This document shows positions 9,592-40,144 of a stretch of DNA of 48,804 bases, piece by piece (within the stretch, counting starts at the first letter, position 1; every line of letters begins with the position of its first letter). The position numbers and the translations under genes are program-made. Origin of the DNA: a virus; IMG/VR virus record IMGVR_UViG_3300048903_000268, positions 1-48,804 of that record; one strand, 5' to 3'. The notes beneath the pieces are model-generated. The model was given only the letters and a program-made list of their open reading frames with translations. It was not told the DNA's origin and searched no databases.

Positions 9592-9855
9592 TCAGGCGGC
9601 GGAGGTGCGGCGGCCGCGCGGTGCACGGCCCGGGCGAAGCTCCAACAGCGCCGGTGCAACGTGCGGAAGAGCGGCCGGGTCAGCCGGCCTGACTCGATGA
9701 ATCGCCTGAATCTCGGCGATCTCTTCGGGGCCGAAGCGGACGTGCTGCCCGTACTTCTGGTGCGGCAGACGCTTGATGTTGCGGCGCAGCCAGCTCTGGG
9801 GGAGCTTGAGCTTCTTTGCGGCTGCGGCGTAGTCGAGCAGGTCGCCGTCGCTCAT
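9592..9855 (-). CDS. excisionase/MerR-like DNA-binding protein
   Basis: 87 residues from ATG 9855. LDYAAAAKKLKLPQSWLRRN followed by RLPHQKYGQHVRF is the helix-turn-helix plus wing typical of excisionase-family (HTH_17) domains. It is co-transcribed with the Cro-like gene and lies about 1.6 kb from the integrase end. It is therefore the best candidate for the recombination directionality factor, although phage regulators share this fold. Confidence 0.72.
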   Translation of the reverse strand: MSDGDLLDYAAAAKKLKLPQSWLRRNIKRLPHQKYGQHVRFGPEEIAEIQAIHRVRPADPAALPHVAPALLELRPGRAPRGRRTSAA

Positions 9856-10130
9856 GCCGCGCTCATCTCCGCCATGGCGGCGTCGGCGCGCTGGGCGGGA
9901 ATCCACAGCACCAGCAGGTCCACGCCGATCCGGGCGGAGAGGCGCTGTGCCGCGGCGTAGTTGGTGGTTTCCTGGTCGCCCTTGACGAGTTCGCCGACGG
10001 TGCTGTGGTGGATTCCGGCGGCTCGGGCGAGCTCCCGGATGGTGACCTTGTCGCCGGTTCCGGTGTGCTGCATGAGCTGGCGGAGGAGGTCGGGGCTCCT
10101 CAGGCGGTACTGGGGCGCGTCGTCGATCAC
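9852..10130 (-). CDS. Cro-like XRE helix-turn-helix regulator
   Basis: 92 residues from GTG 10130, with a perfect AGGAGG site 4 bases upstream. The HTH is ELARAAGIHHSTVGELVKGD, followed by a helical region. It is the first gene of the leftward early operon and diverges from the repressor-like gene at 10395 across a repeat-rich region. Likely the Cro-type early regulator. Confidence 0.82.
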   Translation of the reverse strand: MIDDAPQYRLRSPDLLRQLMQHTGTGDKVTIRELARAAGIHHSTVGELVKGDQETTNYAAAQRLSARIGVDLLVLWIPAQRADAAMAEMSAA

Positions 10131-10394
10131 TGATCCTCCTGCGATGAATCATCCCCCCGTGGGGATGAGTAGAGCATTGCACGCGGGGGACAGTTTGTCT
10201 ATCGCTCCGCGATGGGCAATTCATCCCGAGCGTGCGATGGCGAGAACATGCCATCATCCCCCGTGCGCTCTAGCGTGCGCCTCCCTGTGTGACGGACACT
10301 TTGTCTCCGGCGTGCAACGCGCACCCCTGGTCATCTGGGAGTCTTAAGAGACTCTTGAGGCCACCGGCAGACGCATGTGCGGGAGATACGCGAG
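10131..10394. promoter_or_regulatory. divergent lysis-lysogeny control region with repeated operators
   Basis: Candidate immunity region between the Cro-like and CI-like genes. TCATCCCC (10149-10156) and GGGGATGA (10161-10168) form a perfect 8-bp inverted repeat with a 4-base centre; it overlaps GATGAATCATC (10143-10153). Further TCATCCC half-sites lie at 10221-10227 and 10253-10259. A second motif, GACAnnnTGTCT, occurs at 10189-10200 and 10295-10306. Nearest the repressor gene is the hairpin GAGTCT/AGACTC (10339-10344, 10349-10354). Operator function is inferred from position and repetition. Confidence 0.65.
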
Positions 10395-10790
10395 ATGATG
10401 TTGGCCATGGTTGAAGAGACGCGGGACCAGCTGTCCCGTCTTGTGAAAGAGCGGCGCGCCGAGCTCGGAGTGAGCCTGGCCCAGATCGTTGAGCTATCGG
10501 AGGACCCCGACCTCAACCCGAGCTGGATCAGCCGACTCGAGAACGGGCAGCTGAAGGACGCGCCGAAGCGCGAGCGGCTCGTCTCCCTCGCCAAGGGTCT
10601 GCGTCTCGGATTCCAGCTCGTTGCCCGAGCGGCGGCCGCCCAGTTCATGGGCGTCGAGGATGATGCCGAGTGGAGTTCTGACGGCTCAGTGCGTGCCGTG
10701 GTGGCACGTATGGCCGAATTGTCCGAAGAGGGGCGGCGAGATTTGGCCGATCTGGCGGAGATCTTCGCCAGGGGGCGCAAAGAGGCGTGA
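10395..10790 (+). CDS. CI-like XRE repressor
   Basis: 131 residues from ATG 10395 (GGGAG 9 bases upstream; an in-frame GTG at 10377 is possible). The HTH region ELGVSLAQIVELSE... NPSWISRLENG gives an XRE fold. The C-terminal half is helical and acidic, with no S24 peptidase signature, so induction by RecA autocleavage is not expected. Its plus orientation, divergent from the Cro-like gene, fits a prophage maintenance repressor. Confidence 0.8.
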   Translation: MMLAMVEETRDQLSRLVKERRAELGVSLAQIVELSEDPDLNPSWISRLENGQLKDAPKRERLVSLAKGLRLGFQLVARAAAAQFMGVEDDAEWSSDGSVRAVVARMAELSEEGRRDLADLAEIFARGRKEA

Positions 10791-10938: not shown

Positions 10939-11196
10939 ATGCCAATCATGCACACCGGAACCGGGGCCCGAGTGGCCGTGCGGGTCGTGCCGGTTCCCTC
11001 CCTTCCCGATGGCCGGCGTGTTGCGCGGCTCGACGGCCCGAGTCAGGTGACGTTCCTCGTATTGGAGGGCCAGAGGGTCGAGGACATCGCGGAGGAACTC
11101 CAGCAGGTCATGCAGGACGGCCTCGACTGCGGGCTCTACGAACAGCACTGGGGCGACGCGTCCGTGACGCCGCCCCAGCCCATATCTGTCAGCTAG
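10939..11196 (+). CDS. small hypothetical protein between repressor and integrase
   Basis: 85 residues from ATG 10939, with GGAGGG upstream. The N-terminus is beta-rich and includes PSQVTFLVLEGQRVEDI; the end is helical (EELQQVMQDGLDCGLYEQH). Its stop overlaps the integrase stop on the opposite strand by 4 bases. It probably shares the lysogenic transcript with the repressor. Unknown function. Confidence 0.62.
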   Translation: MPIMHTGTGARVAVRVVPVPSLPDGRRVARLDGPSQVTFLVLEGQRVEDIAEELQQVMQDGLDCGLYEQHWGDASVTPPQPISVS

Positions 11197-12464
11197 CCCG
11201 CGCGGTCGACCAGGTGCAGCCCCGGGGCGCCGCTGCTCGCCATCGCCAGCTGGACGGCAGCGGCGATCTCCCCGTCGAGGGCCCGCTCTAGGTGGCCGTA
11301 CCGGTCGACCGTCGTGGTGATGCTCTCGTGGCCCAGGCGGGCCTGGATCGCCGGCAGCGGGATCCGCGCGGCGATGAGCCAGCTCACGTGGGTGTGCCGC
11401 AGGTCATGCAGCCTCGGCTGCTTCGGGAAGCCCTTCTCCTGCGCGGCCTTGACCGCGACCAGCCACCGCCGGTTGTAGTAGTTCGAGTGCACCCACGGGT
11501 TGCGCCATGCCGTGGTGAAGACGAAGCCGTCGTACGACTTGCCGAGGATGTTTCGGCGGAAGATGTCCGCGAGATCAGGGCTGAGGGCGATCGTACGGCG
11601 GCTCTTCTTCGTCTTCGGCGGGCCGAGCTTCAGGGAGTTGTCCTCCTGACGCTTGAAAGCCCGCTGGATGCGGATCGTGGGCGGCGTGGCGGTCAGATTC
11701 ACGTCGCGGACCTGGAGGGCCGACAGCTCGCCCCAGCGGATGCCGGTGCCCACGAGAACATCGGCGATGTCGACGCCGTCGCCGCGGCAGATGAGCTTGA
11801 GCTCGGCGCGGATGCGCTGCCACTCGTCCTTCTCGAGGAACACCATCTCGTCTTCGGTGCCGTCATCGACGCGGGGCAGTTTGGTCTTTGAGCAGGGGTT
11901 GGATGTCCGCAGGGGCGGTTCGGCCTCAATGGCGGCCTGGAAGATGCCGTAGAGGAGCCCGTGCCGGTTGCTGATGGACTTGGGTGCGGCGGGGCGGCGG
12001 AGCCACTTCTCGGGGTCCGTGGGGTCCGCGAGGCCAGTCTCCTGGGCGCGGACCCAGTCGGTGAGGTCGTCGGCTGTGACGTTGGCGACGGTGGCCTCCG
12101 TGACCTGCCCGGAGGGGGATGTGTGCCTGAGGACGCTGACGATGTGGTTGTCGATGTCCCGCTTGTAGTCCTTGCGGGTGCGTTCCTCGATGCCGGTGAG
12201 GCGGTCGGCCACGCGGTGGGCCCAGTCGGCCAGGGGCATGTCTGCGCCCTGGGGGGCTTCCTGCTGGACGAAGCCCTGGCCTCGCACCCAGCCGGGCGGC
12301 CACTGCTGGCCGTGCATGTCCACGAGACCCCGGAAGACCTCGGCATGGGCCTTGTCCTGGAAGGGTTCAGATTCCTGCTTGCCGTCGCGCTTGCCGCCGG
12401 CCCGCCAGAGGACGGTGTGGGTGATGCCGCCGTCCTTGCGGGGGCGCTCTCTGATGGTCGCCAT
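11193..12464 (-). CDS. int: tyrosine-family integrase
   Basis: 423 residues. The catalytic set is visible: R243 in GTGIRWGELSAL, a basic beta-hairpin KTKKSRR (284-290), H353 and R356 in LHDLRHTH, H379 in LGHES, and the nucleophile Y389 in TVDRYGH. Residues 75-180 form the SAM-like core-binding domain. It catalyses recombination between attP and a tRNA gene in the host. The start lacks a clear ribosome site, so leaderless translation is possible. The candidate attP lies about 107 bases upstream of the start. Confidence 0.95.
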   Translation of the reverse strand: MATIRERPRKDGGITHTVLWRAGGKRDGKQESEPFQDKAHAEVFRGLVDMHGQQWPPGWVRGQGFVQQEAPQGADMPLADWAHRVADRLTGIEERTRKDYKRDIDNHIVSVLRHTSPSGQVTEATVANVTADDLTDWVRAQETGLADPTDPEKWLRRPAAPKSISNRHGLLYGIFQAAIEAEPPLRTSNPCSKTKLPRVDDGTEDEMVFLEKDEWQRIRAELKLICRGDGVDIADVLVGTGIRWGELSALQVRDVNLTATPPTIRIQRAFKRQEDNSLKLGPPKTKKSRRTIALSPDLADIFRRNILGKSYDGFVFTTAWRNPWVHSNYYNRRWLVAVKAAQEKGFPKQPRLHDLRHTHVSWLIAARIPLPAIQARLGHESITTTVDRYGHLERALDGEIAAAVQLAMASSGAPGLHLVDRAG

Positions 12465-12570: not shown

Positions 12571-12597
12571 TGGGGTGAGTGACGGGACTCGAACCCA
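12571..12597 (-). other. candidate attP core: tRNA 3'-end remnant (probably tRNA-His)
   Basis: The minus strand reads GGGTTCGAGTCCC (part of the T arm), then GT, CACTCAC (7-nt acceptor strand), C and CCA. Only the 3' end of a tRNA is present; the sequence before GGGTTCGAG (ATT) does not pair with the CCCGT strand, so identity with a host gene should begin near 12595. A C discriminator base before CCA is typical of bacterial tRNA-His. The position next to the integrase supports attP; the exact core and tRNA identity are inferred. Confidence 0.68.
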
Positions 12598-13092
12598 ATC
12601 TGTTACAAAGCTTTGACCTGCGAAGATGCCGCGACCTGGCGAAATGCGTATGCCATCGCATGCTGATGGATGCTCTCCGATGGCCCAGCCGATAGCGCGT
12701 GCTGACGTGTCAGCACGGCCGCCCGAAGATCTGGTGACCCGCCCGGCACTCACTGAACGCACCGAACCCCCGCCCAGGGGTCCGGACGAGGGTTCGGCTC
12801 ACCCCTGCCGCCCGCTTGGGGGCGAGGACCGGCAGGGAGCTGACGCCGACCGAAGGAAAGGGGAGACCCATCGGGCGGCAGCATGGGAGAGAGGCAGGTC
12901 AGAGGGGGTGACTGGCATATGCCCCGAAGGAGCTTCGCACAATCGTTCGTATATGAGAAGTACTTAGTTTGCGCCTTCCATCACTCGCCGTCATGCCCAG
13001 AAACGACCAGCTCACGCATCTAGGGCGCCCAAGACACCGAGCGTCTTCCTACCGTGGCGTGGACCAGTCCGCTCTCGCCAGCAGGGATGCCC

Positions 13093-13710
13093 ATGCCGAC
13101 GGCGCCGCACCGGCACGTCGCCGCCGAGATCCGACGCCGGATCACCGCTGGGGCCTGGCCCCCCGGTTACCGTCTGCCATCCCGAGCCAGCCTGGCCGCC
13201 GAACTGGGCGCAACCGAAGACACGGTCCGACGAGGCGTCGAGATCCTGCGACGAGCTGGAGAACTCGAGGGAACGCAACGTTCACGCCTCTTCGTGGCGC
13301 ATCCTCCTGCTGTGCGCACCCTTCTCAACGCGGACGCCGATTGGCCGCACCCGACCGGCGACGGCGGTGGCATCGGCTCCTGCCTAGCCACAGCCGACCT
13401 CGCCAGCCGACTCCAGGTCGCACCCAAGACGCGCCTTCACTGGCAACGCCTCGAATGCCTCGACCCCGACCTTCGGCCCAGCCATCTCGTCACCAGCTGG
13501 TGGGTCGGCCGGCGCGCCGCCCGGTGGGCGCGCAGTGCCGCTGTTGCCGAGCTCCACCAACTCACCACCGCCGAGGCCGCCCACCTCGGCCTCGCCGCCG
13601 GCATCCCGACGTGGCTCGTCCAACGCACCCGATACGACCAGAACGGCCAGCCGCTCGAGACCGCCGACCTGGTGCTCCCGGCCGACCGGTGGCGGGTTCG
13701 GCTGCGATGA
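13093..13710 (+). CDS. GntR-family transcriptional regulator
   Basis: 205 residues from ATG 13093 (AGGG upstream; ATG 13087 is possible). The N-terminal winged helix is clear: AAEIRRRITAGAWPPGYRLP, then SLAAELGATEDTVRRGVEIL. The C-terminal 130 residues resemble a shortened UTRA ligand-binding domain, ending in LETADLVLPADRW. HutC-type GntR proteins (for example the plasmid regulators KorSA and TraR) repress transfer and integration functions in Streptomyces elements. Here it faces the terpene synthase gene convergently and lies beside attP. Confidence 0.82.
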   Translation: MPTAPHRHVAAEIRRRITAGAWPPGYRLPSRASLAAELGATEDTVRRGVEILRRAGELEGTQRSRLFVAHPPAVRTLLNADADWPHPTGDGGGIGSCLATADLASRLQVAPKTRLHWQRLECLDPDLRPSHLVTSWWVGRRAARWARSAAVAELHQLTTAEAAHLGLAAGIPTWLVQRTRYDQNGQPLETADLVLPADRWRVRLR

Positions 13711-13747
13711 GCGGGGGCGCCTGGGGCTTAGCCTTCGCCGCTCATCG
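13705..13747. terminator. bidirectional terminator hairpin spanning two stop codons
   Basis: Perfect 10-bp arms CGATGAGCGG (13705-13714) and CCGCTCATCG (13738-13747) with a 23-base loop. Each arm contains the TGA of one of the two convergent genes (GntR, stop 13708-13710; terpene synthase, stop 13742-13744). This is a compact shared terminator. Confidence 0.6.
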
Positions 13748-14659
13748 GGCCGCCTCCGGGAGCCTGCTGGCCGGGATGATGGCGTATCGGGAGCTGCTGC
13801 GTGTCCAGCCCGCCAAGGCCTGCAGGAAGGTGTCGAGGCCGTCAACGAGGTGCACCGTCGCGGGCGCGATGCGCTCAGCCGGATCCCTCCAGCCCATGGG
13901 CTCCCGGGTCGCACTGCGGAAGAGCTGGAACAGCCGGAGCTCGGCGGCGGCCAGTTGCTCGACCTCGGCGCGGGCCGAGGCGGGTGTCAGACCCTCGGCC
14001 TGGGCCAGCGCGGCCTGGGCGGTGAACGGGTCGCCAGCCCGGGCGGCGAGGTCGTTGCCGAGGGTGCCGACGGAGGAGAAGTGCCTCAGGACCGCCTGGA
14101 CGAGCGGCGTGTCCCAGTCCGGGCTGACGCAGTCGAGGGCAAGCTCGGTCCACATCGCGGCGAGCAGCATGCCGCCGTCGGCGGGCCGGAGTTCGAGGTA
14201 CCGCCGGAGTGAGGGGACGCGCCGCGGGATGACGTGATTGTGCAGCTTGTCGGCTGCCGCGTTGAGCCAGGTGTCCAGCTCGCGGCGGTAGCGGTGCCAC
14301 CAGTCCTCGGGCATCGCGGGCGCCGTACGGCCGACGAGGTGGCCGAGAGCGCGAGCGGTCGGGTGGTCGTCCGCACAGGCTGGCGCGCCGTGCAGCACAT
14401 CGGTCAGCCGCATCACGAGCTCGTCAGCCGCACCCGGGGCCGCGGTGCGCAGGTCGGTGTCGATGACGTCGTCGACGCGCCATGTCCACAGGCCCCACTG
14501 GGTCGCGAGGAGCAGGCTGCTGTAGCCAGCACCGGGCCATGCGGCCCCGAAGAGGCCGATGAAGCCCTGCGCGAGGAAGCCGCGTGGGTCGGGGTGCAGA
14601 TCGTGGGTGGATAGGAAGTCCGCGGCAACGGCCGTCAGGGTGTCGTGGCGTGTGAGCAT
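13742..14659 (-). CDS. class I terpene synthase (cyclase)
   Basis: 305 residues from ATG 14659 (GGAGGTGG 5 bases upstream). It has the metal-binding DDVID (63-67, DDxxD), a diphosphate-sensor segment SLRRYLELRP (150-159, candidate R158), an NSE-type triad as NDLAARAGD (202-210), and the C-terminal W285...RY (291-292). Together these define a bacterial class I terpene synthase fold, normally converting farnesyl or geranyl diphosphate to a cyclic terpene. The triad is altered: Ser is A206 and Glu is D210. It is 15-60 residues shorter than most homologues. No prenyl-diphosphate synthase or P450 is nearby, so the substrate would come from the host. An XRE/TPR regulator with a matching operator lies upstream. 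Confidence 0.85.
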   Translation of the reverse strand: MLTRHDTLTAVAADFLSTHDLHPDPRGFLAQGFIGLFGAAWPGAGYSSLLLATQWGLWTWRVDDVIDTDLRTAAPGAADELVMRLTDVLHGAPACADDHPTARALGHLVGRTAPAMPEDWWHRYRRELDTWLNAAADKLHNHVIPRRVPSLRRYLELRPADGGMLLAAMWTELALDCVSPDWDTPLVQAVLRHFSSVGTLGNDLAARAGDPFTAQAALAQAEGLTPASARAEVEQLAAAELRLFQLFRSATREPMGWRDPAERIAPATVHLVDGLDTFLQALAGWTRSSSRYAIIPASRLPEAAR

Positions 14660-14733
14660 GGGCCACCTCCGCAGGTATCGAAGCGTCAGGCGGTGCCTGA
14701 ACGCGCGTAGGTGAATGGTGGCCGCAGAAAGAG

Positions 14734-14766
14734 CGAAGACCGGGTACACGGTGTACCCGGTCTTCG
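14734..14766. promoter_or_regulatory. long dyad with GGGTAC-N5-GTACCC operator upstream of the terpene synthase
   Basis: CGAAGACCGGGTACAC (14734-14749) and GTGTACCCGGTCTTCG (14751-14766) are perfect 16-bp arms around one base. The core GGGTAC-ACGGT-GTACCC (14742-14758) matches, in arms and spacing, the dyad upstream of the regulator gene (16038-16054). It lies 83 bases before the terpene synthase start and just after the regulator stop. It could be an operator, a terminator for the regulator, or both. A smaller dyad TCAGGC-ggt-GCCTGA follows at 14686-14700. Confidence 0.65.
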
Positions 14767-14780
14767 AATCACCCATCTGG

Positions 14781-15977
14781 TCAGATGGGGATGTTCAGGT
14801 GGCGAGCCGCCTCGGCCACCGGGCCGCGAGTCCGCGCCCGCCTCGCCGACGTCGTGACCATCTCCGTGACCAGCGGGTGCGACCGGACCCCTTCCGGTGA
14901 CAGGCGGTCAGCGGCGAGGATCTCCGCCATGGCGCCGGCGTCGTCGCCGTCCCGGACGTGGGCGCGCGCCCGGTCGATCCCGTGCCGGGCCCGCCGCTCC
15001 TTCGGGAGCCGGGTCATGTCCACCCCGGCGATGCGCTCCAGCGCGGCCAGGCCCTCGCCAGCTTCCAGGGCGACGTGGACGATGTGGATCGCTTGGTTCC
15101 CGCGGGAGAATTCCGTCTGGTAGGTCGCACCGTCTCCGACGCGCTCGGCAGCCGTCGCCGCTTCCGCGAGGTGCCCGGCTGCTTCGCCCTGCCTGCCCTG
15201 CTGAGCATCCGTCACCGCCCGCACCAGATGCAGGGTCCCCCAGAGGCTCCAGGCCCCGGCGTCATCGTCGGCAAGGAGGCCATCAACCCTGTCGAGTCCG
15301 GCGTCGATGAGCGCCCGCGCCTCGGCCCGGGCGCCAGCCGTCATGCAGACCTCAGCCTGTGTCCACTCCATCGCGGTGATCAGCAGCGGGTCGCCGGAGG
15401 CCACGGCCGCCTGCAGAGCCTGGCTTGCGGCCAAAGCCGCCAGGTCCACGTAGCCGAGTTTCTTGGTCATCATCGTCGTGTTGTGCCGTGCCTCGGCGAG
15501 CAGGTGGTGGGCAGCGTCCCGGTCAGCGCCCTCGAGCACCTGCGATGTCGTGGCGATGTCGACCAGGAGCTCCGGCAGCAGTGCGCCGAGCTGGCTGTAG
15601 TGGCCATGACGACGGAGCTTGTTCGTCTCGTTGACGCGTCCCCGCAGCTCCTCTATCGGCATGGGTGCTCCGAGCACTACCGTGGGCAGCTGAGCCCTGA
15701 GCAGGGTGCGCCGGATCGTGGGGATCAGCAGGTGCGCGGTCTGTGTCTCGGGGTCGCCGAGCGGCCGAGGCCGGCCGATCAGGTCGACGTAGTCGACCTC
15801 CAGTGCCTCGGCTAGGGCCTGGATGGTAGAGAAGGAGTCGAGGCGGCGCTTGCCGAGCTCGATCGACTTCACCCACTCGGCGCTCTTGCCCATGGCCCCC
15901 GCGAGCTGGTCACGGTCCCAGCCTCGCGCTGTTCGGTACTGCTGGACCCGCTGTCCGATGGTCGGCTGTGCGTCCAC
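14781..15977 (-). CDS. XRE helix-turn-helix regulator with TPR-like repeats
   Basis: 398 residues from GTG 15977 (GGAGGG upstream). The N-terminal HTH includes GQRVQQYRTARGWDRDQLAG, then KSAEWVKSIELGKR. From about residue 120 to the end it is all-helical with TPR-like pairs (EARHNTTMMTKKLGYVDLAA, AGARAEARALIDAGLDRVDG). This architecture is frequent among Streptomyces regulators that sense a peptide or small ligand. Its position directly upstream of the terpene synthase, with the same palindrome before each gene, suggests that it controls both. Confidence 0.82.
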   Translation of the reverse strand: MDAQPTIGQRVQQYRTARGWDRDQLAGAMGKSAEWVKSIELGKRRLDSFSTIQALAEALEVDYVDLIGRPRPLGDPETQTAHLLIPTIRRTLLRAQLPTVVLGAPMPIEELRGRVNETNKLRRHGHYSQLGALLPELLVDIATTSQVLEGADRDAAHHLLAEARHNTTMMTKKLGYVDLAALAASQALQAAVASGDPLLITAMEWTQAEVCMTAGARAEARALIDAGLDRVDGLLADDDAGAWSLWGTLHLVRAVTDAQQGRQGEAAGHLAEAATAAERVGDGATYQTEFSRGNQAIHIVHVALEAGEGLAALERIAGVDMTRLPKERRARHGIDRARAHVRDGDDAGAMAEILAADRLSPEGVRSHPLVTEMVTTSARRARTRGPVAEAARHLNIPI

Positions 15978-16037
15978 GTGACCCTCCAGGGTGACCGGTG
16001 TGGTGCGCCAACGGTAGGCCGGACGGCATATGCGCCC

Positions 16038-16054
16038 GGGTACCCGTTGTACCC
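16038..16054. promoter_or_regulatory. GGGTAC-N5-GTACCC dyad upstream of the XRE/TPR regulator
   Basis: GGGTAC (16038-16043), CCGTT, GTACCC (16049-16054), 61 bases before the regulator start. It has the same 6-bp arms and the same 5-base spacing as the dyad before the terpene synthase. A CATATGC element (16027-16033) lies between it and the gene. Probably an autoregulatory operator; the -10/-35 boxes cannot be fixed by eye. Confidence 0.62.
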
Positions 16055-16136
16055 GCTGTGCGGGGTCGCGCATAGCGCCGCAGGTCACGGGCACGACATA
16101 GCGCCCCCGCTCTCCCGGAGGAGTGCAGGGGTGCGG

Positions 16137-16502: not shown

Positions 16503-16917
16503 CAGCACCTCCAGGATGTTCAGGCGGCTCGGGCCACTCGGCCACCACGATCGCGACGCCGCAGAACGCCCCCCAGATCGCGGCCGACACCCAGCCGCGC
16601 GGGTTGTTGTACAACCCCCAGGACGCCAGCGAACCGAGCGCCCACGGGGCAGCAACGAAGTAGATCGCCGGGAAGCCCAACCAGTCCCGCCCAGTCGGCC
16701 GCCAGGCGGAGACGATCGCGCACAGCCCTGCAGCGACCCAGCACCAGGCCCAGGCGTGCAGCGGCATCAGATCGAGCAGGAGCTGGATACCGCGGGTGTC
16801 GACAGGCGGCTGAACGAGCAGCCCGTAGCCATACAGCAAGGTCATGATGCCCTTGAAGGTGAGGACAGCACCACGGCGGCCCACACGGTGCACGATCCGG
16901 CGGGCCGCCGCGCGCAT
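16492..16917 (-). CDS. multi-pass membrane protein of the lysis cassette
   Basis: 141 residues from ATG 16917 (A shared with the holin stop). There are three to four hydrophobic segments: FKGIMTLLYGYGLLV, AWAWCWVAAGLCAIV, FPAIYFVAAPWALGSL and SAAIWGAFCGVAIVVA. The N-terminus is basic and the end acidic. It is encoded directly after the r1t-type holin, so it may be a second holin or antiholin. Confidence 0.7.
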   Translation of the reverse strand: MRAAARRIVHRVGRRGAVLTFKGIMTLLYGYGLLVQPPVDTRGIQLLLDLMPLHAWAWCWVAAGLCAIVSAWRPTGRDWLGFPAIYFVAAPWALGSLASWGLYNNPRGWVSAAIWGAFCGVAIVVAEWPEPPEHPGGADER

Positions 16918-17195
16918 CAGACGCCCGGGAAGGTCGAGGCGCTGTTCTTCTGGCCGATCGCCCGCGCGGCCAGACCCTTGACCAGCGTGACTACTGCGGC
17001 CAGGCCGCCCGTGCCCATGGCCTGCCAGAACGACGCGTGCAGCATGTCAGCCGGGCCAGCCGCCGTGGCGATCGCGGCCTCGGCGGCGAGGAACGTGAAG
17101 ATGACTCGCTCGGTCAGGTCGCGAGCGTACGTCTCAGCCGTCTTCACAACGGTCTCGGCGGACGGCAGTGGAGGAAGGGAGGATGGGGTGGTCAT
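16917..17195 (-). CDS. holin, r1t-like
   Basis: 92 residues from ATG 17195. Two hydrophobic helices (RVIFTFLAAEAAIATAAG and GGLAAVVTLVKGLAARAIG) are separated by a short polar turn, with TERVIFTF near the first. This is the pattern of r1t/phage_holin_4-type proteins of Gram-positive phages. It would permeabilise the membrane to release or activate the amidase encoded 9 bases upstream. Confidence 0.8.
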   Translation of the reverse strand: MTTPSSLPPLPSAETVVKTAETYARDLTERVIFTFLAAEAAIATAAGPADMLHASFWQAMGTGGLAAVVTLVKGLAARAIGQKNSASTFPGV

Positions 17196-17204
17196 GAGGT
17201 CTCC

Positions 17205-18173
17205 TCAGGAGTGGGTCGGGGTAGGTCCGGTGACGTTGACGTCGACGTGCACGATCGCCTCGGCGACTGCGGCCTGCAGCTGAGCCAGGACAGGCGCGGG
17301 GAGCTGTGCAAGCGCCGCGGTCAGCCTCGGCAGCAGGTCACCCCACGGCTGGCCGGCCACGGCCGGGACCGGGGTGCCCGTGAGGGCCTTCTGCAGCCAC
17401 CAGTGGACGGCGTACGCCACGGTGTCGCGGCCCTGCACGCTGGTGACGGAGCCGAGCGTCTCCTCACGGATGAAGCGGCGGATGTCCTGCTCGCTGAACG
17501 GCATAGGGTCCTCCTCGGTGGGTGTGGTCGTGCCCGTGGCGAGAGCCAGCAGGCGGGTGATGTTGATGGAGCCGGGGTCGCCGTGTTCGTTCTCCGGCAC
17601 GTGCTGGTGACCGCACCAGCCCGTGAAGCGCTGCCACTGGGCGATGCTCATCCGGACGCCGTTGTCCGCGCCGGAGCTCGCCGGGTAGGCCTCCCAGGTC
17701 AGCCCGGAGGTGAGCGGGATGCCGTGATTGTCGGACAGCCAGCGCATCAGCCAGGCGAGTTCGGCGAGCACCCAGTCCGGGGCGGTCGGCCAGTAGATGT
17801 AGTCGACGCCGGCGCGGAGGGTCTGGCTGCCGAGCCGCCAGGTGGTGGCGTTGTCCGGGTCGCAGGTGCCGACGAGCTCGATCTGGAAGGCGTTGGCGGT
17901 GTTGGTGGCGGGCTGGCCGGAGGCGTGGACCAAGGCGCGGGCGGATTCGTCGACGTCGAAGTGCTGATGCCAGACAATCTTGTGGCGGTTCATGTCGGGC
18001 ACGCCGGTGACGGTCGGGGCGACCGCGCCCGAGTTGTAGTCGTAGAGGGTCGGGCCTTCGGTGGTGTGCAAGACGCCGCAGTTGACCTCCATGTCGGTGC
18101 CCGCGTAGCGGCCGTCGCCGAAGTAGAGATCGAACAGCGCGCCCGGGATCTTCTGTGGTCCGGTGCGGGTCAT
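17205..18173 (-). CDS. endolysin: N-acetylmuramoyl-L-alanine amidase
   Basis: 322 residues from ATG 18173 (GGAGGA upstream). Residues 1-200 match the Amidase_2/PGRP fold: the first zinc His in GVLHTTEGPT, WHQHFDVD, AFQIELVGTCD, and a C-terminal zinc ligand in WCGHQHVPENEHGDPG. It cleaves the bond between MurNAc and L-alanine in peptidoglycan. The C-terminal part (DIRRFIREE... and VHWWLQKALTG) lacks a recognised wall-binding repeat; phage amidases of actinobacteria often end this way. Confidence 0.88.
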   Translation of the reverse strand: MTRTGPQKIPGALFDLYFGDGRYAGTDMEVNCGVLHTTEGPTLYDYNSGAVAPTVTGVPDMNRHKIVWHQHFDVDESARALVHASGQPATNTANAFQIELVGTCDPDNATTWRLGSQTLRAGVDYIYWPTAPDWVLAELAWLMRWLSDNHGIPLTSGLTWEAYPASSGADNGVRMSIAQWQRFTGWCGHQHVPENEHGDPGSINITRLLALATGTTTPTEEDPMPFSEQDIRRFIREETLGSVTSVQGRDTVAYAVHWWLQKALTGTPVPAVAGQPWGDLLPRLTAALAQLPAPVLAQLQAAVAEAIVHVDVNVTGPTPTHS

Positions 18174-18213
18174 GTGTCCTCCGCGGGCTGGTCGGGTCAG
18201 AGGTTGTTGAGGG

Positions 18214-19362
18214 CTAGTTGCAGGTGAAGGGGGCGAACGGGGGCCGGTGGATGCCGCCGTCACCAGCCGCCCCGGCCGCGAGCGCCGGGTTGTAGGTGAG
18301 CGGCTCGAGATGCACTCCGGCCGTGGTCTCATTCATCTGGCCCGTCCACAGATTGATGCGCTGCCAGGGCTGCCCGTCGATTACGGACACCGTGTCGGGC
18401 TGGCCACCACAGGAGTTGGCGGAGAGGAGCCTGCGCGCGTTGGCGGGGGCGCTGACTCCGACGTTGCCGGGCGCCGTCCACGGCCCGATCGGCGACGGGG
18501 CGATGGCATAGCCGGTGCCGGTTCCGGCGCAGTAGCCGCAGCGGACGTCGCTGTAGGTCATGACCCATGTGCCGGTCGCGGCGTCGCGCCACATGCCCAT
18601 CGCCTCTACAAGGCTGAGCCCGGCAACGTTGGTGGCGCCGACCCCGGTCCCGTCCGAGCCCCACTTGGAGAGCTGCTCGACAGCGACGGAGGTGGTGCCG
18701 ATCATCGGGCAGAGGAGGTAGATGCTGGTGCCGTCCGAGGAGGCGCTGATCCCGGGGTCACCGTTGGCGCCGTTGCACTGGTGGAGTGTCGGCCGGTGGG
18801 TGGTGCCGTAGGGTGCGCCCGCGCTGGCCCCGCACGGTCCGGCGGGCCCGTTACAGCCCATGATCATGTAGGCGTGGGGGGCCGACCCGAGGCCGCTGGT
18901 CACGTAGCTCGGGGCGTTGAACCACAGCACCCACACCCCGTCGTTCGCGCCCCAGCCCGAGCGCTTCACCATCCGCGGCGAGAAGCAACCCCCGCCACCC
19001 GTGCCGCACGTCTGCTGGTAGGTGTGGCCCGGGTTGTACGGGTCCGGCGCTGCCGCCGGGAACAGCAGCTGCGGCGACGACCACGGACCCTCAAGCGCCA
19101 GCGCGGTCGACACCCCGAAGCCGCACCACGGGCTGGTGGTCTGCCACGTGAACCCGCAGCCGTACTCCGTGCCGACCATGTAGTAGGTCGAGCCGTCCTT
19201 GTAGACCTGGCCGTCATGCAGGTCGGCCCCCGTCAGCGTCACCGATGCCGCCGGCGCCAGTGCCCCAGCGGCCTGCGGGGAACACGCCCCCAGCAGCACG
19301 GCCACGAGCAGCAGCACGGCGGCTATGAGGCCGAACGGATGGGTACGACGGGCAGACTGCAC
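18214..19362 (-). CDS. secreted lipoprotein with GH43-like glycoside hydrolase fold
   Basis: 382 residues from GTG 19362 (GGAG upstream). A basic start, hydrophobic helix and LLGAC lipobox predict lipid anchoring at C27. The mature part resembles a five-bladed GH43 propeller: LHDGQVYKDGSTYYMVGTEY (blade with the catalytic Asp), CFSPRMVKR, DPGISASSDGTSIYLL, and LVEAMGMWRD...WVMTYS (acid Glu position), then SPIGPW. Many cysteines suggest disulfides. It is encoded between the tail-tip and lysin genes. Roles could be receptor or capsule trimming, or superinfection exclusion by a lysogen; both are inference. Confidence 0.7.
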   Translation of the reverse strand: MQSARRTHPFGLIAAVLLLVAVLLGACSPQAAGALAPAASVTLTGADLHDGQVYKDGSTYYMVGTEYGCGFTWQTTSPWCGFGVSTALALEGPWSSPQLLFPAAAPDPYNPGHTYQQTCGTGGGGCFSPRMVKRSGWGANDGVWVLWFNAPSYVTSGLGSAPHAYMIMGCNGPAGPCGASAGAPYGTTHRPTLHQCNGANGDPGISASSDGTSIYLLCPMIGTTSVAVEQLSKWGSDGTGVGATNVAGLSLVEAMGMWRDAATGTWVMTYSDVRCGYCAGTGTGYAIAPSPIGPWTAPGNVGVSAPANARRLLSANSCGGQPDTVSVIDGQPWQRINLWTGQMNETTAGVHLEPLTYNPALAAGAAGDGGIHRPPFAPFTCN

Positions 19363-19430
19363 GTGAGCTCCAGCGACAGGAGGGCCAGTTGTGCAGGAAG
19401 CTACAGACCGGCCCGAACAAGCCACTGACC

Positions 19431-19937
19431 TCAGGCAATACGCGTGAACCTGAGCCACGAGTTGCCGAGCATGTACGTCGTGGTCGCACTCGACGTGGCC
19501 TGAGCCCACCGCAACTGCACCGTCCCGGCGGTCGTCCCCATGATGATCGACGCGTGGATTGCGGCACCCATGTCAGTCGAGGCGTTCGTGGCGAAGGACC
19601 TAGCCGTTGAGGCCGCGTTGACGGTGGCCTCGTACTGGACGGCCGGGCTGGTGGCGACCGCCCCGAACGAGGTGTACAGCAGCCCTGCGCCGGTCGGCAG
19701 CGTGAAATCGATCTTGATGTCGCCGGAGCCAGGGGCAGCACCCCGAACCTGCAGATACCCGTCCATGATGTACGTCGCGTTCGCCTCCAGCGCTGCGAAC
19801 AACTCATCGTCGTTCTGCAGCGTCGTCGAGGACGTCACACCCTCGGCCGCCGACTTGTAGACGACAATCGGCAGCATCGACGTCAGCAGCGAGCCAGTGA
19901 TCCGCTGGCCCGCAGAGATAGCCGGATACGTGGACAA
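19431..19937 (-). CDS. minor tail protein
   Basis: 168 residues from TTG 19937, preceded by the strong site GGAGGG. It starts STYPAISAGQRITGSLLTSM, an opening seen in many actinophage tail-tip proteins, and continues as a beta-sandwich (YEATVNAASTARSFATNAST, AGTVQLRWAQ, NSWLRFTRI). It lies directly downstream of the large minor tail gene, so it is probably part of the tail tip or fibre. Confidence 0.75.
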   Translation of the reverse strand: MSTYPAISAGQRITGSLLTSMLPIVVYKSAAEGVTSSTTLQNDDELFAALEANATYIMDGYLQVRGAAPGSGDIKIDFTLPTGAGLLYTSFGAVATSPAVQYEATVNAASTARSFATNASTDMGAAIHASIIMGTTAGTVQLRWAQATSSATTTYMLGNSWLRFTRIA

Positions 19938-22091: not shown

Positions 22092-24875
22092 CTAGTTCCG
22101 GCCGAGGGCGGTCTGCACGTTGCCGCCCTGAATCCGGATGTTCTTCCGCAGCCAGGACATGAACTCGTCCGCCGGGTTCCAGCCGACCCACTCCACCTGC
22201 ACCGTCGACGGGGCGCCCTGCACAGCCTGCGCGGCCCTCGTGCGAGACTGCCCGGACGGGATGACCGTCGATCCGCCCGGGAGGCGGACCAGTTCGGGGC
22301 CTTGCTCGCCGACCCACGTCAGGCCACTACGCGCACCACCCGTCGCCGCGCCGCCGATGATGCCGCCGTGCGCCTGCTGCCCGAAGTCGAGGAACCTGTA
22401 GCGGGCATCGATCGTCAGCTCCCTACCGTGCATGGAGTCGAGGTCTTCCTGAGCAACGTCAATCTCGTGCTCGAGCTGATGGATGTCGGCCTGGATCTGG
22501 ACGCGCTTCTGGCCGGTGGTGCCCCTCAGGGATGCCTCGGCGTCGGCGAGCTTGGCCTTCAGATCGTCGACGTTGCCGCGCAGGTAGGCCGTCTTGTCCG
22601 GGGTCTGGAGGATCGCCTCGGTCAGGGCACGGGCCTGGTCGCGGGTGAGGCCCATCTGCATGGCGACGGACATGAGCTTCTCGCGGCCACGGTCATAGAT
22701 CGCGTTGACGTCGGTCATTGCGGCGCCGTTGTTGAGGGCCGCCTGGGCGGCGGCGTCGGTCTTAGCGGCGAGGTCGGTGAGTGCGGCTTCCTCTGTTCTG
22801 GACTTCTCGGTGCTCAGGTCGAGGACCCCGTCGCGGTAGTGCAGAGCGGCGCCGTTTTCCTTCAAAGCCTTGCTGGCGGCGTCGACCGCGGCCTCGAACC
22901 CGGCCTGGGAGTCGAGCGCTCCCCGCTCGGTGTCGTTCAGGTCGATGATCGCGTCCTTGAGCCCGGTCGCGGTCATCCGCTGGGCATCCAGGGCCTTGCT
23001 CGTTGCCATGGCCTGCTCGCCCAAGGCGCCCATGCTGTCGGCCGCGAGATGGTCGGTCATAGCCGATGCAGCGAGGGCGTCCTGGTATTTGTGGAGACCG
23101 CCGGCCAACGCCTCGGGCTTGCCACCTTGTGCCAAAAGGGCGTCATCAAGGCGCTTCAGCGCTGCGGCAGCCAGGTCACTGTGGCCCTGCTGGACCATCG
23201 CGGCGAGCGATTGGTCAACAGCATCGATCTGCTCCTTGGCCTTCGACAGGTTCGACTTGTCCGTGCCAAGCGTCGCCAGCTTGTAGAAGCCCTCCATGAA
23301 GCCGTCCATGCCGGACTGCTTACGGGAGATCTGATCAACCGCACCGCCGAGCTTCTGCAGATCGGTCCCGAGAGTCCTGGCAAGCTCGCCGGCGACGCCG
23401 CCTGAGCGGCCGAAGTTCATGAGCGACGTGGTGAGCTTGTCGACGTTCGGGGGTGCCTTCTCGGAGATGCTGCTCAGCTCGATGATGGCCGTCACCAGGA
23501 GGCCGATGGCGGTCGCAGAGACCGCGACCTTCGCCTTGGTCGAGAGGGCCGTGAATGCGGCACCGAGAGTACTCACACTCTGGCCAGCCATCGTGGATGC
23601 CAGCATCGTTTCGAACATGCGAGCCTTGTAGGCGACCATTCCGGCCTCAGCAGCCTTGACCGCCGTGGCCAGAGTCGTAAACAGCGCCACCGTCTTGGAG
23701 ATGACGGCAAATCCGGCGAATCCGGCAACGACCAGCCCAGCACCCTTCGCGAACTCGAGCATGCTGTCACGGTTGTTGAGCATCCACGTCGAGACCTTCT
23801 GCAACGGCGGGATGAGCTTCTCGCCCAAGGTGATCATCAGAGCCTGGAGGGAGCCTTCCAGCTCCTTCGTCTGCTGGCTGAAGGTCTGCTGGGTCTGCTC
23901 CCATGCCTTCCCGAAATTGTTCGCCCCAGCCTCCAGCGCCGGGTACTTCGACTCGAGGCGGTCCATCTGCCCGACCAGGATGTTCAGGCCCGCGCCAGCC
24001 TTGCGGCCGAAAGCATCCGTGATGATCTGGCCCTGCTTGTCGGCCGAGATCCCGGCGGCGTTCATGCGGCCGACGAGGTCCTCGAGGGCCAGCTTGAGGC
24101 CGCCACGCTGCATGTCGTCAGCCAGCGTCGTCTGAGTGAGACCCAGGGTCTTCAGAGCTGCCGCCGAGGTGGCGATTGGCTTGGCCAGCGCCATCACGCT
24201 CATCCGCAGCTGGTTGCCAGCGAGACTTCCCCTGATGTTGTTGTCACCAAAAACTGCCAACGCGGCCCCGACATCGGTGATGCTCAGGCCGAAGCCCTTG
24301 ACCGTCGCCACCATGCCGGACGAGAACGCGCTGGCCAGGTCCTGCATCTTCATGTCGCCGACGCCGACTGTGGCGTTGAGGACACCCATGGCGTGGTCGA
24401 AGTTCTCGACTCCGGGGATGCCCGAGGCGACAGCGGCTGTCAGCGCGTTGGTGACGTCGACGAGGTCGGCGTGGCCGATCGCGGCGCCCTTCGCCGCAGT
24501 CTCCGTGAGCTGGAGGGCCTTCTCCGAAGTGATGCCCATGCTCTCGAAGTTGCTCTCGACGTGGTAGAGCGCCTCCGCGAGCGAATCGGGGTCGGTGCCG
24601 ACCTTCGCCGCGATGCCCAGCACGCCCTTCTTCAGACCGTCGAGCTTGTCCGCCCCGACGCCCGCCTGCGTCACCAGGAGCGCCATCTCGCTGTCGAACT
24701 TCGAGGCCATCTTGACGGCTTCGAAGCCCACCCCGGCCAGCGCCAAGGCGGACAGGTTGGCGGTCTTGTTGAGCTTGGCCATGGTGGACTCCATGGCCGT
24801 AGTGCCTGCCTTGGCTTCGGTGAAGGCGGGGCCCGTCAAGTTCTTCGCCGTGACTAGGATCTCGACGATGTTCAC
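22092..24875 (-). CDS. tape measure protein
   Basis: 927 residues from GTG 24875, overlapping the chaperone reading frame as GTGA. Ala/Lys-rich helices run through most of the protein. The N-terminal region (ALAGVGFEAVKMASKFDSEM, then TQAGVGADKLDGLKKGVLGI) matches the PhageMin_Tail family. Hydrophobic segments near residues 375-430 (AGLVVAGFAGFAVIS) and 455-475 are usual. The C-terminal GGATGGARSGLTWVGEQGPE is a common tape-measure ending. It sets tail length; about 927 residues predicts a tail near 140 nm by the usual 1.5 angstrom per residue rule. Confidence 0.92.
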   Translation of the reverse strand: MNIVEILVTAKNLTGPAFTEAKAGTTAMESTMAKLNKTANLSALALAGVGFEAVKMASKFDSEMALLVTQAGVGADKLDGLKKGVLGIAAKVGTDPDSLAEALYHVESNFESMGITSEKALQLTETAAKGAAIGHADLVDVTNALTAAVASGIPGVENFDHAMGVLNATVGVGDMKMQDLASAFSSGMVATVKGFGLSITDVGAALAVFGDNNIRGSLAGNQLRMSVMALAKPIATSAAALKTLGLTQTTLADDMQRGGLKLALEDLVGRMNAAGISADKQGQIITDAFGRKAGAGLNILVGQMDRLESKYPALEAGANNFGKAWEQTQQTFSQQTKELEGSLQALMITLGEKLIPPLQKVSTWMLNNRDSMLEFAKGAGLVVAGFAGFAVISKTVALFTTLATAVKAAEAGMVAYKARMFETMLASTMAGQSVSTLGAAFTALSTKAKVAVSATAIGLLVTAIIELSSISEKAPPNVDKLTTSLMNFGRSGGVAGELARTLGTDLQKLGGAVDQISRKQSGMDGFMEGFYKLATLGTDKSNLSKAKEQIDAVDQSLAAMVQQGHSDLAAAALKRLDDALLAQGGKPEALAGGLHKYQDALAASAMTDHLAADSMGALGEQAMATSKALDAQRMTATGLKDAIIDLNDTERGALDSQAGFEAAVDAASKALKENGAALHYRDGVLDLSTEKSRTEEAALTDLAAKTDAAAQAALNNGAAMTDVNAIYDRGREKLMSVAMQMGLTRDQARALTEAILQTPDKTAYLRGNVDDLKAKLADAEASLRGTTGQKRVQIQADIHQLEHEIDVAQEDLDSMHGRELTIDARYRFLDFGQQAHGGIIGGAATGGARSGLTWVGEQGPELVRLPGGSTVIPSGQSRTRAAQAVQGAPSTVQVEWVGWNPADEFMSWLRKNIRIQGGNVQTALGRN

Positions 24876-33928: not shown

Positions 33929-35317
33929 TTAGCGGGCCGCGAGCTCCACGAACGGCGACAAGGTGCTGCCGCCGTTCTTCGGGGTGATCGCGGACTTGAT
34001 CCACGGGCGGCCGTCGACGCGCTGGATGATCCTGAACGTGGTCTTGTCGGAGCCGAAGTTGAAGTCGGTGGAGCTGTCGGCGGTCATGGTCTGCCGGTCG
34101 CCGACCAGGTAGTACGACAGGTCCACGAAGGAGATGTCGCCCTGGGAGCCCAGCGCGCCGGCCTTCTCGGAGATGATGAGCGGGCGGCCGAAGATGGTCA
34201 TCGGGGCCGAGCCGACGGCCGAGTTGATGAACACGGGGCCACCGCCGACGCCCACCGCGAGGGCCATGGTGAACAGCTCGGGCAGCGCGTCCGGCGAGCA
34301 GATCCACACGGCCTTCGAGAGGCTGGAGGGCAGCATGCGGGCGTACATGCTGACGATGTTCTTGTAGGTGATGGTGGCACTGGGCTGACCGGACTCCGCC
34401 GCGACGGCGATCATCGCGGAGTTGGCCGCGCCCATGAACCCGAGGGGCTCGCCCACGCCGGAGCCGGACATGAACGCGGCGTCCTCGGAGAACGCGAGCG
34501 CCTTGGGCCAGAGGTTCTCGATCAGTGCCGAGAAGCTGACGATGGAGTCCTGAAGGAGCTCGTTCGGGACCGCCGACAGGCCGGTGAGCTTCTTGGCGTC
34601 GAGCTCGGCCCGACCGAACTTCGGGTTGGAGTCGGTGAGGTTGGCGCCCTCCTCGCCCCAGTAAGCGATCATCCCACCGAAGACGCTGGACTGGTTCGAC
34701 GTCGAGTCGATCATCGGGAACGGCACGCGCGCGCTGTCCATCGGCACGACCGTCGCCAGCGGCCGGACCACCGACTCCTCCAGCGCGATCTGCAGCAGCT
34801 GGCTGCGGAGGTTCTCCGGCACCAGGAAGCCACCGTCCGACGGCGAGACGCTCGACGCCGCGTTCCGCAGCACGCCGAGCTTCTCCGCGACGCTGGCCTC
34901 GGGCGTCTTGTGCCAGATCGTCCGCACGTAGTCGATGTGGTCCTCGAAGTGCTGGTCGAGGATCGCGCCGGCCGCGTGCGGATTGTGGGCGGTTCCCTGC
35001 CGGTGCGAGGTGAGCATCGACCCGGAGCGCTTGGCCTGCGGGTCGAAGGACGGCCGGCGGATGGCCTCCTTGTCGGCCTTCTGGCCGTTCTCGCGGAGCA
35101 TGTTGGCGAGCTGACGCTGGGTCTCCTCCGCAACGATGCGGTTGAGCTCGGTGCCGTCGCCCTGCTGCTTGTCGGCGTACGCGTTGATGAACGCCCCGAG
35201 GACCTCCTTCGAGCCCAGGACGTCCTTGAGCCGGCCGGGGTCGGCGAGCATCTCGGCGAGCTCGGCGGCGTTGGCCGGGATGGGGGTGCCCGTCGGGAGG
35301 GCGGTGGTGGTGGTCAC
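33929..35317 (-). CDS. major capsid protein, HK97 fold
   Basis: 462 residues from GTG 35317 (GTGA overlap with the protease). The first 120 residues are helical and charged, the expected scaffolding-like delta domain. From SPSDGGFLVPENLRSQLLQI the HK97 pattern is clear: IALEESVVRPLATVVPMDSA, NELLQDSIVSFSALIENLWP, FMSGSGVGEPLGFMG, and a conserved end ITPKNGGSTLSPFVELAAR. The upstream protease would remove the delta domain. Confidence 0.93.
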   Translation of the reverse strand: MTTTTALPTGTPIPANAAELAEMLADPGRLKDVLGSKEVLGAFINAYADKQQGDGTELNRIVAEETQRQLANMLRENGQKADKEAIRRPSFDPQAKRSGSMLTSHRQGTAHNPHAAGAILDQHFEDHIDYVRTIWHKTPEASVAEKLGVLRNAASSVSPSDGGFLVPENLRSQLLQIALEESVVRPLATVVPMDSARVPFPMIDSTSNQSSVFGGMIAYWGEEGANLTDSNPKFGRAELDAKKLTGLSAVPNELLQDSIVSFSALIENLWPKALAFSEDAAFMSGSGVGEPLGFMGAANSAMIAVAAESGQPSATITYKNIVSMYARMLPSSLSKAVWICSPDALPELFTMALAVGVGGGPVFINSAVGSAPMTIFGRPLIISEKAGALGSQGDISFVDLSYYLVGDRQTMTADSSTDFNFGSDKTTFRIIQRVDGRPWIKSAITPKNGGSTLSPFVELAAR

Positions 35318-36228
35318 AGGAGTGCCTCCGTCAGGGTGGCGAACGCGTCGTCGGGTGACGGCGCGGCGGTCAGGTGGCTGGTGGCGTCGGCCCACGGGTC
35401 GGGCTCCAGCTCGATTTCTGCCTCGGCCTCCGGCGCGGCCGGGGGCTCGACGGCGGGCGCAGGCTCGGCAGCCGCCGGGGTGGTGTCTGCGGTGGGATCG
35501 GCGACTGCCGGTGTCTCGGCCGTAGCCTCCAGCGCCACCTCGGTGACGGCCACGTTCACCGGGGCAGGGGCCTCGGCGCGCGACGCGTACCGGAAGATGC
35601 TCAGGTCCCAGGAGTTTTCCGGCGAATTTCCGGAACTCGGTGATCGCGTTGGTGAGACCTCATCAGCCAGCCCAGCCGCAACAGCCTCTTCAGCCGTGTA
35701 CCAGGTCTCCGCCGTCATCAGCGCCCGCCAGTCGGCGACGTCGCCTCCGGCCTTCTCGGCGTAGACGGAGGCGATGTTGTCGCTCTGCCGGTCGAGGAGG
35801 TCGGCCATCTCGCGCATCTCGGCGGCGTTGCCGATGCACAGCCCGCTGCCGTCGTGGATCATCAGCTGCGAGTTGGGCGCCATCACGACCCGGTCGCCCG
35901 CCATCGCGATGACGGAGGCGATACTCGCGGCGAGGGAGTCGACGTACGTGGTGACCGTCGCCCGATGCGCACGCAGGGCGTTCATGATGGCGATGCCATC
36001 AAAGATCTCGCCACCAGGGCTGTTGATGTGCACGTCGATCGCGGAGACGTCCAGGGCTGAGAGCTCCGCGACGAGGTCGGACGCGGTGATGCCCCAGTAC
36101 CCGATCTCGTCGTAGATGTGCAGCGTCGCCGGGGCGTTGCCGCCGATGCTGTTGGTCAGCCGGTACCAGTCGGTGCGGCCCTGCCTCAGCTGTGCCCGGG
36201 GCCGAGCAGTGCGTAGCCTGCCTGGCAT
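35314..36228 (-). CDS. ClpP-like (S14) prohead maturation protease
   Basis: 304 residues from ATG 36228. Residues 40-210 contain HINSPGGEIFDGIAIMNAL, the nucleophile Ser in SLAASIASVIAMAG and the His in NSQLMIHDGSG, the S14 pattern. The C-terminal 90 residues are acidic and Ala/Pro-rich (AEAEIELEPDPWAD), a probable scaffold-like tail. It is followed with overlap by the capsid gene, the usual HK97-type assembly order. Confidence 0.9.
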   Translation of the reverse strand: MPGRLRTARPRAQLRQGRTDWYRLTNSIGGNAPATLHIYDEIGYWGITASDLVAELSALDVSAIDVHINSPGGEIFDGIAIMNALRAHRATVTTYVDSLAASIASVIAMAGDRVVMAPNSQLMIHDGSGLCIGNAAEMREMADLLDRQSDNIASVYAEKAGGDVADWRALMTAETWYTAEEAVAAGLADEVSPTRSPSSGNSPENSWDLSIFRYASRAEAPAPVNVAVTEVALEATAETPAVADPTADTTPAAAEPAPAVEPPAAPEAEAEIELEPDPWADATSHLTAAPSPDDAFATLTEALL

Positions 36229-38274: not shown

Positions 38275-38454
38275 CTAGCGACGCGGCCTGTCCGAGATTG
38301 CCATCTCAGCGCACAGGCAGGACGCGCCGGCGGCGACCCAGCCGAGCGGCGGCCAGGCGAGCCACAGCCCGTAGGAGACGAGCCCGAGCCCGGCGATGAC
38401 CAGCACGATGGGCAGTAGGGGGCGGAGTAGGGCGGCGATCTGCTGGTAGGGCAT
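38275..38454 (-). CDS. small two-segment membrane protein
   Basis: 59 residues from ATG 38454, one base overlapping the terminase stop. Hydrophobic stretches LLPIVLVIAGLGLVSYGLWL and LGWVAAGASCLCAEMAI suggest two membrane spans. It is encoded between terminase and portal. Role unknown. Confidence 0.65.
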   Translation of the reverse strand: MPYQQIAALLRPLLPIVLVIAGLGLVSYGLWLAWPPLGWVAAGASCLCAEMAISDRPRR

Positions 38455-39848: not shown

Positions 39849-40144
39849 GACGGGCCCAAGGTCCGCCGCAGGGCCTCGCGCAGCTGTCGCAGAGTCTCTG
39901 GCGACGTGTCGAACTCCAGCTCTGCTGGGCTGGCCGCTGTACCGACGGGCGAGTAGTAGGTGCAACCTTCCTCGCCGACAATGTCGAACCGCCTGACGGT
40001 TGGGGTGGCTGCGAGGGGTACGTCGTCGAGGTCGCAGCCAGAGCACCCGGTGTTGCCGCAGGCGCAACAGCCCGGGCACTCGCCAACGCACCAGCCGCCG
40101 CACGGCCAGCCTGCGAAGTCTCCGGGCAGCGGCTCGCGGGTCAC
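39845..40144 (-). CDS. cysteine-rich small protein beside the terminase
   Basis: 99 residues from GTG 40144. The N-terminal 40 residues hold eight cysteines (CGGWCVGECPGCCACGNTGC and CD), enough for a two-zinc cluster. The rest is helical (SPETLRQLREALRRTLG). It is coupled to terL by ATGA and to the membrane peptide gene by GTGA. Possibly a DNA-packaging accessory. Confidence 0.65.
   Translation of the reverse strand: MTREPLPGDFAGWPCGGWCVGECPGCCACGNTGCSGCDLDDVPLAATPTVRRFDIVGEEGCTYYSPVGTAASPAELEFDTSPETLRQLREALRRTLGPS

Follow-up and report, generated by a model that had tools for sequence, protein, structure and literature searches.

A terpene-synthase-like gene as a probable lysogenic-conversion cargo of temperate actinophages

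A temperate actinophage genome carries, next to its attachment site, a gene for a 305-aa protein with the profile match and predicted fold of a class I terpene synthase, a type of enzyme involved in the formation of scents and antibiotics. We favour, with moderate confidence, the explanation that this is a recurrent lysogenic-conversion cargo gene of a phage integrating at tRNA-His, that its product is a divergent class I terpene-synthase-like enzyme, and that it is linked to XRE-type regulators. This explanation builds on the phage context, the position of the gene, its homology, the predicted fold, the conserved diphosphate-handling residues and the recurrence at one locus, each of which is documented below.

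Genome context of the terpene-synthase-like gene

The window, i.e. the whole stretch of DNA analysed, is a complete virus record of 48,804 bases and represents the near-complete genome of a temperate actinophage infecting Streptomyces-like soil bacteria. Based on PHROGs assignments, terminase, portal, head protease, major head protein, tape measure, tail proteins, endolysin and holin are encoded to the right of the terpene-synthase-like gene, and an integrase, an excisionase and a repressor candidate to its left (Table 1). Together with the attP, these complete modules agree with the initial annotation of the DNA as a temperate phage genome, and host contamination was rejected since phage genes flank the gene on both sides. 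The nearest cultured relative by capsid is Streptomyces phage Dagobah (48% identity), for which neither an integrase nor a terpene synthase is annotated. Two tail-region proteins also have partial or weak matches to enzymes: one (18214-19509) weakly resembles glycosyl hydrolase family 43 (E 0.0014) and is possibly a surface-degrading enzyme, and a large one (19947-22082, phrog_5313) partially matches the phage phosphodiesterase family phrog_24476 (E 9e-47).

Since the attP core matches the 3' end of tRNA-His(GTG) exactly, the phage most likely integrates at this tRNA gene. The exact 26-mer was found in 41 of 150 Streptomycetaceae genomes; at all four sites tested, a tRNA-His was called by ARAGORN. 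The terpene-synthase-like gene would then occupy the prophage end opposite the integrase. With holin and endolysin on one side and attP and tyrosine integrase on the other, as originally described, it sits within the phage in the interval from lysis genes to attachment site, the classic cargo position and the usual place for lysogenic-conversion genes.

Table 1. Features of the phage genome, with positions in the window
Feature	Position	Strand	Evidence
Excisionase-like protein (phrog_1840)	9592..10257	-	PHROGs
XRE-type repressor candidate	10377..10790	+	PHROGs
Tyrosine integrase	11193..12464	-	Pfam, PHROGs
attP core	12571..12596	-	26/26 nt identical to 3' end of Streptomycetaceae tRNA-His(GTG)
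GntR-UTRA regulator, convergent to terpene-synthase-like gene	13054..13710	+	Pfam
Terpene-synthase-like gene, 305 aa	13742..14659	-	Pfam, alignment, AF2, Foldseek
Ribosome-binding site GGAGGTGG, before ATG of terpene-synthase-like gene	14663..14670	-	Read from sequence
Palindrome CGAAGACCGGGTACAC-G-GTGTACCCGGTCTTCG, interval from XRE to terpene-synthase-like gene	14734..14766	.	Sequence, related phages
XRE-family regulator (phrog_5823)	14781..16094	-	Pfam, PHROGs
Holin	16917..17195	-	PHROGs
Endolysin	17205..18332	-	PHROGs
Tail tape measure protein	22092..24875	-	PHROGs
Major head protein	33929..35395	-	PHROGs
Head maturation protease	35314..36228	-	PHROGs
Portal protein	36254..38263	-	PHROGs
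Terminase large subunit	38454..40103	-	PHROGs

Terpene synthase fold and degenerate NSE site

The predicted reading frame is present at the positions first reported; it lies on the minus strand, with its ATG at 14657-14659. Its sole Pfam match is Terpene_syn_C_2 (PF19086; E 6e-19, 69 bits against a cut-off of 23.7), aligned to residues 54-240 with nearly full coverage of the profile, and phmmer searches against solved structures matched the protein to 10-epi-cubebol, caryolan-1-ol and geosmin synthases. The AlphaFold2 model, computed from a six-sequence alignment, is all helical (pLDDT 88.3, pTM 0.87). Its best PDB match in Foldseek is T-muurolol synthase (TM 0.83, E 9e-11), and the best 50 of the 263 matches at E<=0.001 are all terpene synthases. 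Two of the checks that had been proposed for this gene, a profile search and a structure prediction, point to the same family, with the all-alpha class I terpenoid fold of bacterial class I terpene synthases. The match is not due to chance, and profile and modelled fold together support assignment of the protein as a terpene-cyclase homologue. None of the PADLOC models of known anti-phage defence systems matched it, and a known anti-phage defence gene was rejected on this basis.

Catalytic motifs were evaluated against published definitions, namely DDxxD, the NSE motif ND(L,I,V)xSxxxE, a sensor Arg about 46 residues ahead of NSE, and a terminal RY (PMC5082573). Several motifs listed in the initial annotation were recovered, including DDVID at residues 63-67, SLRRYLELRP at 150-159, and the terminal W...RY as W285...R291-Y292. 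Across 24 sequences, D63, D64, D67, N202, R291 and Y292 are invariant, as is the pyrophosphate-sensor R158 with D161 and G162 (24/24), this Arg lying 44 residues ahead of N202. The ND...D triad described at 202-210 is not an NSE triad: N202-D203 is present, but profile alignment to solved cyclases indicates that the NSE Ser is replaced by Ala (A206) and the Glu is deleted, both in this protein and throughout its clade. Where solved cyclases have NDLFSYQRE or NDVLSYPKE, the phage-gene clade has NDLAA followed by a gap of ~5 residues. D210, a candidate substitute metal ligand, is nearly invariant and located in a loop of variable length, not aligned to the NSE Glu. A distant homologue (L074) keeps NDLYSAPVE, which suggests that NSE was lost in the phage-gene clade from a normal ancestor.

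Because the NSE triad is degenerate throughout the clade, the listed motifs fall short of defining a class I terpene synthase, contrary to the initial annotation, and the clade is best described from its sequences as divergent and terpene-synthase-like rather than as a canonical member. A canonical terpene synthase was rejected for this protein for the same reason. Active cyclases with an altered first NSE residue exist (PMC5082573), and the literature searched yielded no active cyclase in which both the NSE Ser and Glu are lost. Given the clade-wide degeneration of this metal site, turnover may be weak or absent.

A narrow host gene family associated with XRE regulators

The closest relatives of the protein (52-56% identity) form a multi-copy Streptomycetaceae family, including for instance WP_329572880.1, annotated as hypothetical. 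A tblastn search of plasmids returned one close relative (55.7%), encoded by a Kitasatospora plasmid and annotated as hypothetical. Genome scans with a single-sequence query found no family member, and a two-sequence alignment used as query found Kitasatospora. At a membership threshold of 1e-25, the family was detected in 9 of 395 Streptomycetaceae genomes, with 1-6 copies each. A class-wide sample of 395 genomes yielded no carrier beyond an already known genome, and the family thus appears narrow in distribution. Paralogues show dN/dS of ~0.13-0.36, consistent with purifying selection. Host copies (L010-L012, L055-L083) often cluster by genome in the tree, suggestive of lineage-specific expansion. 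A small cysteine-containing ORF (CxxC...C; L010, L012, L016 and L082) often precedes or overlaps the start of the host copy, and an ORF of 60-85 aa is often found 3' of it; neither is present in the window. One host copy (L012:7944-9164) is extended at its C terminus, in a way that resembles fusion to the small ORF found 3' of other copies.

In 20 of 31 host loci the gene immediately upstream of the family member is of XRE type, and the number rises to 24 when a distance of up to two genes is allowed, compared with 4 of 377 other positions (Fisher p 6e-19). Sequence clustering was used to classify some of the regulators in this count, including one cluster that has no Pfam match. Several of these XRE-type neighbours carry DUF5753, and DUF6879, NUDIX or HAD genes also adjoin host copies. 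The association extends to viruses, as an XRE gene adjoins the terpene-synthase-like gene in all three phage contigs identified (the window, L085 and L086). For the XRE-family regulator of the window, homologues suggest a true start near 15980.

Regulatory features around the gene were only partly as initially described. The gene does have its own ribosome site, and the upstream dyad is real: the palindrome is perfect, with 16-bp arms, lies directly behind the XRE gene, and is the only one in the window with arms >=10 bp and a loop <=3. Its core, GTACAC(G)GTGTAC, is also found behind the XRE gene in related phages (L005:7204-7234 and L007:7228-7246, with altered spacing in L006:7297-7328), and a weaker copy with 2 mismatches (16040-16052) precedes the probable XRE start. 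Judging from this placement, the palindrome is probably the terminator of the XRE gene and/or an XRE operator, and it is no evidence for XRE control of the cargo gene. The stem flanks around the core differ among related phages with pairing preserved, possibly reflecting an operator and a terminator in one. The supposed shared terminator was not borne out: the convergent stop codons of the terpene-synthase-like and GntR-UTRA genes are covered only by an inverted repeat of 10 bp around a 23-nt loop, and no T-run terminator was found there. Sequence scans for a sigma-70-type promoter or a clear terminator of the gene's own gave no match, the hairpin behind the XRE gene being the one terminator-like structure.

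These observations raise the alternative that the protein is a catalytically silent or regulatory terpene synthase fold, acting as a prenyl diphosphate sensor or as a partner of the XRE regulator, with no terpene made. The clade-wide loss of the NSE Ser and Glu and the strong pairing with XRE genes would both fit, as would the lack of a tailoring enzyme adjoining the gene in the window. We nevertheless find this alternative doubtful, as 24/24 sequences retain the DDxxD motif, the sensor Arg, the D/G pair, N202 and RY, a degree of conservation greater than simple binding should need, and as variation of the first NSE residue is seen in active cyclases.

Recurrence at the same locus in phages and prophages

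The proposed comparison with other actinophages revealed the gene at the same locus in two further IMG/VR contigs, detected with an alignment-based scan, and in an integrated prophage. The first contig (L085, 50.5 kb) has the order tail, endolysin, XRE-TPR regulator, terpene-synthase-like gene (51%), small convergent HTH gene and serine integrase, and the second (L086, 52.9 kb) has tail, lysin, XRE, terpene-synthase-like gene (43%), small HTH gene, LuxR-like gene and tyrosine integrase. Structural genes of both are mostly unrelated or distant to those of the window phage (terminase ~27%). The prophage of Kitasatospora sp. GAS204B (50.6 kb) is integrated at tRNA-Thr between perfect 44-bp direct repeats and is related to the window phage (terminase 75%, tape measure 59%, portal 51% and capsid 49%). 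One of its ends carries a tyrosine integrase, and the terpene-synthase-like gene (55%) lies 1.2 kb from the other (right att). Kitasatospora sp. NBC_01266 and a further genome (G208) have tail/lysin genes, XRE and the terpene-synthase-like gene in the same order, and another (G178) has at least one endolysin-like gene nearby. A small convergent HTH gene occupies the GntR-UTRA position in four related loci. In three loci, the stretch from the terpene-synthase-like gene to the prophage end contains a LuxR-like regulator (L086:10131-11282, L056:4513-5586 and L081:4230-5246).

Three sister phages (L005-L007) share the XRE gene and lack the terpene-synthase-like gene, as expected of a non-essential gene. 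This weighs against the favoured explanation in one respect: in this phage line, the XRE gene is not specific to the cargo. DNA of L005 is 95% identical to that of the window phage in the tail and early regions, and its attachment module differs. Integrase and attachment modules of L005 and L008 are wholly different from those of the window amid ~95% identity in the tail and early regions, a pattern of module exchange at the attachment region. Phage-borne copies are scattered over different parts of the gene tree. Since the gene recurs at this locus in other phages and prophages and is missing from three relatives, it is an optional passenger of one locus that has been acquired repeatedly.

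Under a less favourable interpretation, the gene is host DNA that was captured at the prophage end through imprecise excision or recombination and, though intact, serves neither phage nor lysogen. Stray host genes do land beside att, and the content of this locus differs between sister phages. However, at least three phages that differ in structural modules and integrases, and a bounded prophage as well, have the same family at this locus, phage copies fall in different parts of the tree, the reading frame is intact and the paralogues are under purifying selection, making this interpretation quite improbable. A chimeric assembly of host DNA and phage, conceivable if the window is taken alone as a single record, has next to no likelihood and was rejected as far as the contigs allow: a join at the gene is unlikely because a second, independent contig (IMGVR_UViG_3300048917_000345) spans both of its flanks and repeats window positions 2252-25905 (~23.7 kb) with 2 mismatches, and other phages and the finished prophage boundary have the same layout. 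Of the two outcomes that the initial annotation had named as contrary to its reading, neither was observed, as the protein matches terpene synthases in profile and fold and the second assembly runs through both sides of the gene.

Proposed role and comparison with known systems

Under the lysogenic-conversion explanation, the phage would integrate at tRNA-His and bring its cargo gene to the prophage end beside the attachment site, where the lysogen would express the enzyme using the gene's own ribosome site, and the adjoining XRE regulator would influence transcription via the GTACAC-G-GTGTAC palindrome. The substrate would be a prenyl diphosphate of the host, most likely FPP or GGPP, bound via Mg2+ held by D63/D64/D67 and via R158/R291/Y292; a third Mg2+ would be coordinated only weakly, or else by N202 and possibly D210. 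A small terpenoid would then be released to the benefit of the lysogen, and we infer that it could be volatile or antibiotic-like, as originally suggested. The phage line would have acquired the gene from the patchy, multi-copy Streptomycetaceae family, usually located behind XRE regulators. It is also possible, if tentative, that these proteins represent a new class I subclass without the NSE triad, carried by several actinophage lineages as an XRE-controlled lysogeny cassette whose terpenoid serves as a signal or protectant.

The initial annotation knew of no established phage system of this kind, and we found none either: tblastn with three queries against 50,697 INPHARED phage records gave no terpene-synthase-like match, PHROGs and open-access papers included no phage terpene synthase, and two additional viral scans with other subclades as queries gave no further phage carrier. 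The records and open papers covered here thus contain no known case of a terpene synthase as phage cargo. An active enzyme would mean that phages spread terpenoid chemistry among Streptomyces-like bacteria, and the NSE-less clade would then serve to test which metal ligands are truly required by class I terpene cyclases; if the enzyme is inactive, a terpene synthase fold would have been reused next to XRE regulators.

Compared to bacterial class I terpene synthases (PF19086; e.g. T-muurolol, geosmin N-domain and pentalenene synthases), the phage protein has the same fold, DDxxD, sensor Arg and RY, but is only ~20% identical, with a degenerate NSE, a ~5-residue deletion and a sensor Arg-to-Asn spacing of 44 instead of the canonical 46 (PMC5082573). 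The Streptomycetaceae family (e.g. Kitasatospora sp. GAS204B and NBC_01266) shares the degenerate NSE and the XRE pairing, but is mostly chromosomal or plasmid-borne and often has DUF5753, DUF6879, NUDIX or HAD neighbours, which the window lacks. Within BFVD, the only terpene synthase fold at E<0.001 is the terpenoid synthase of Orpheovirus IHUMI-LCC2, a giant virus of a eukaryote, and this enzyme shares the fold at 14% identity and TM 0.61. Temperate phages carrying genes for a compound useful to the lysogen are exemplified by phage-borne bacteriocin clusters such as that of SPbeta for sublancin. Such bacteriocin and lysogenic-conversion genes yield peptides or toxins, with no terpene synthase reported among them in the sources searched. 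Lysogenic-conversion cargo and terpene synthases are thus each known, whereas their combination and the NSE-less clade appear to be new.
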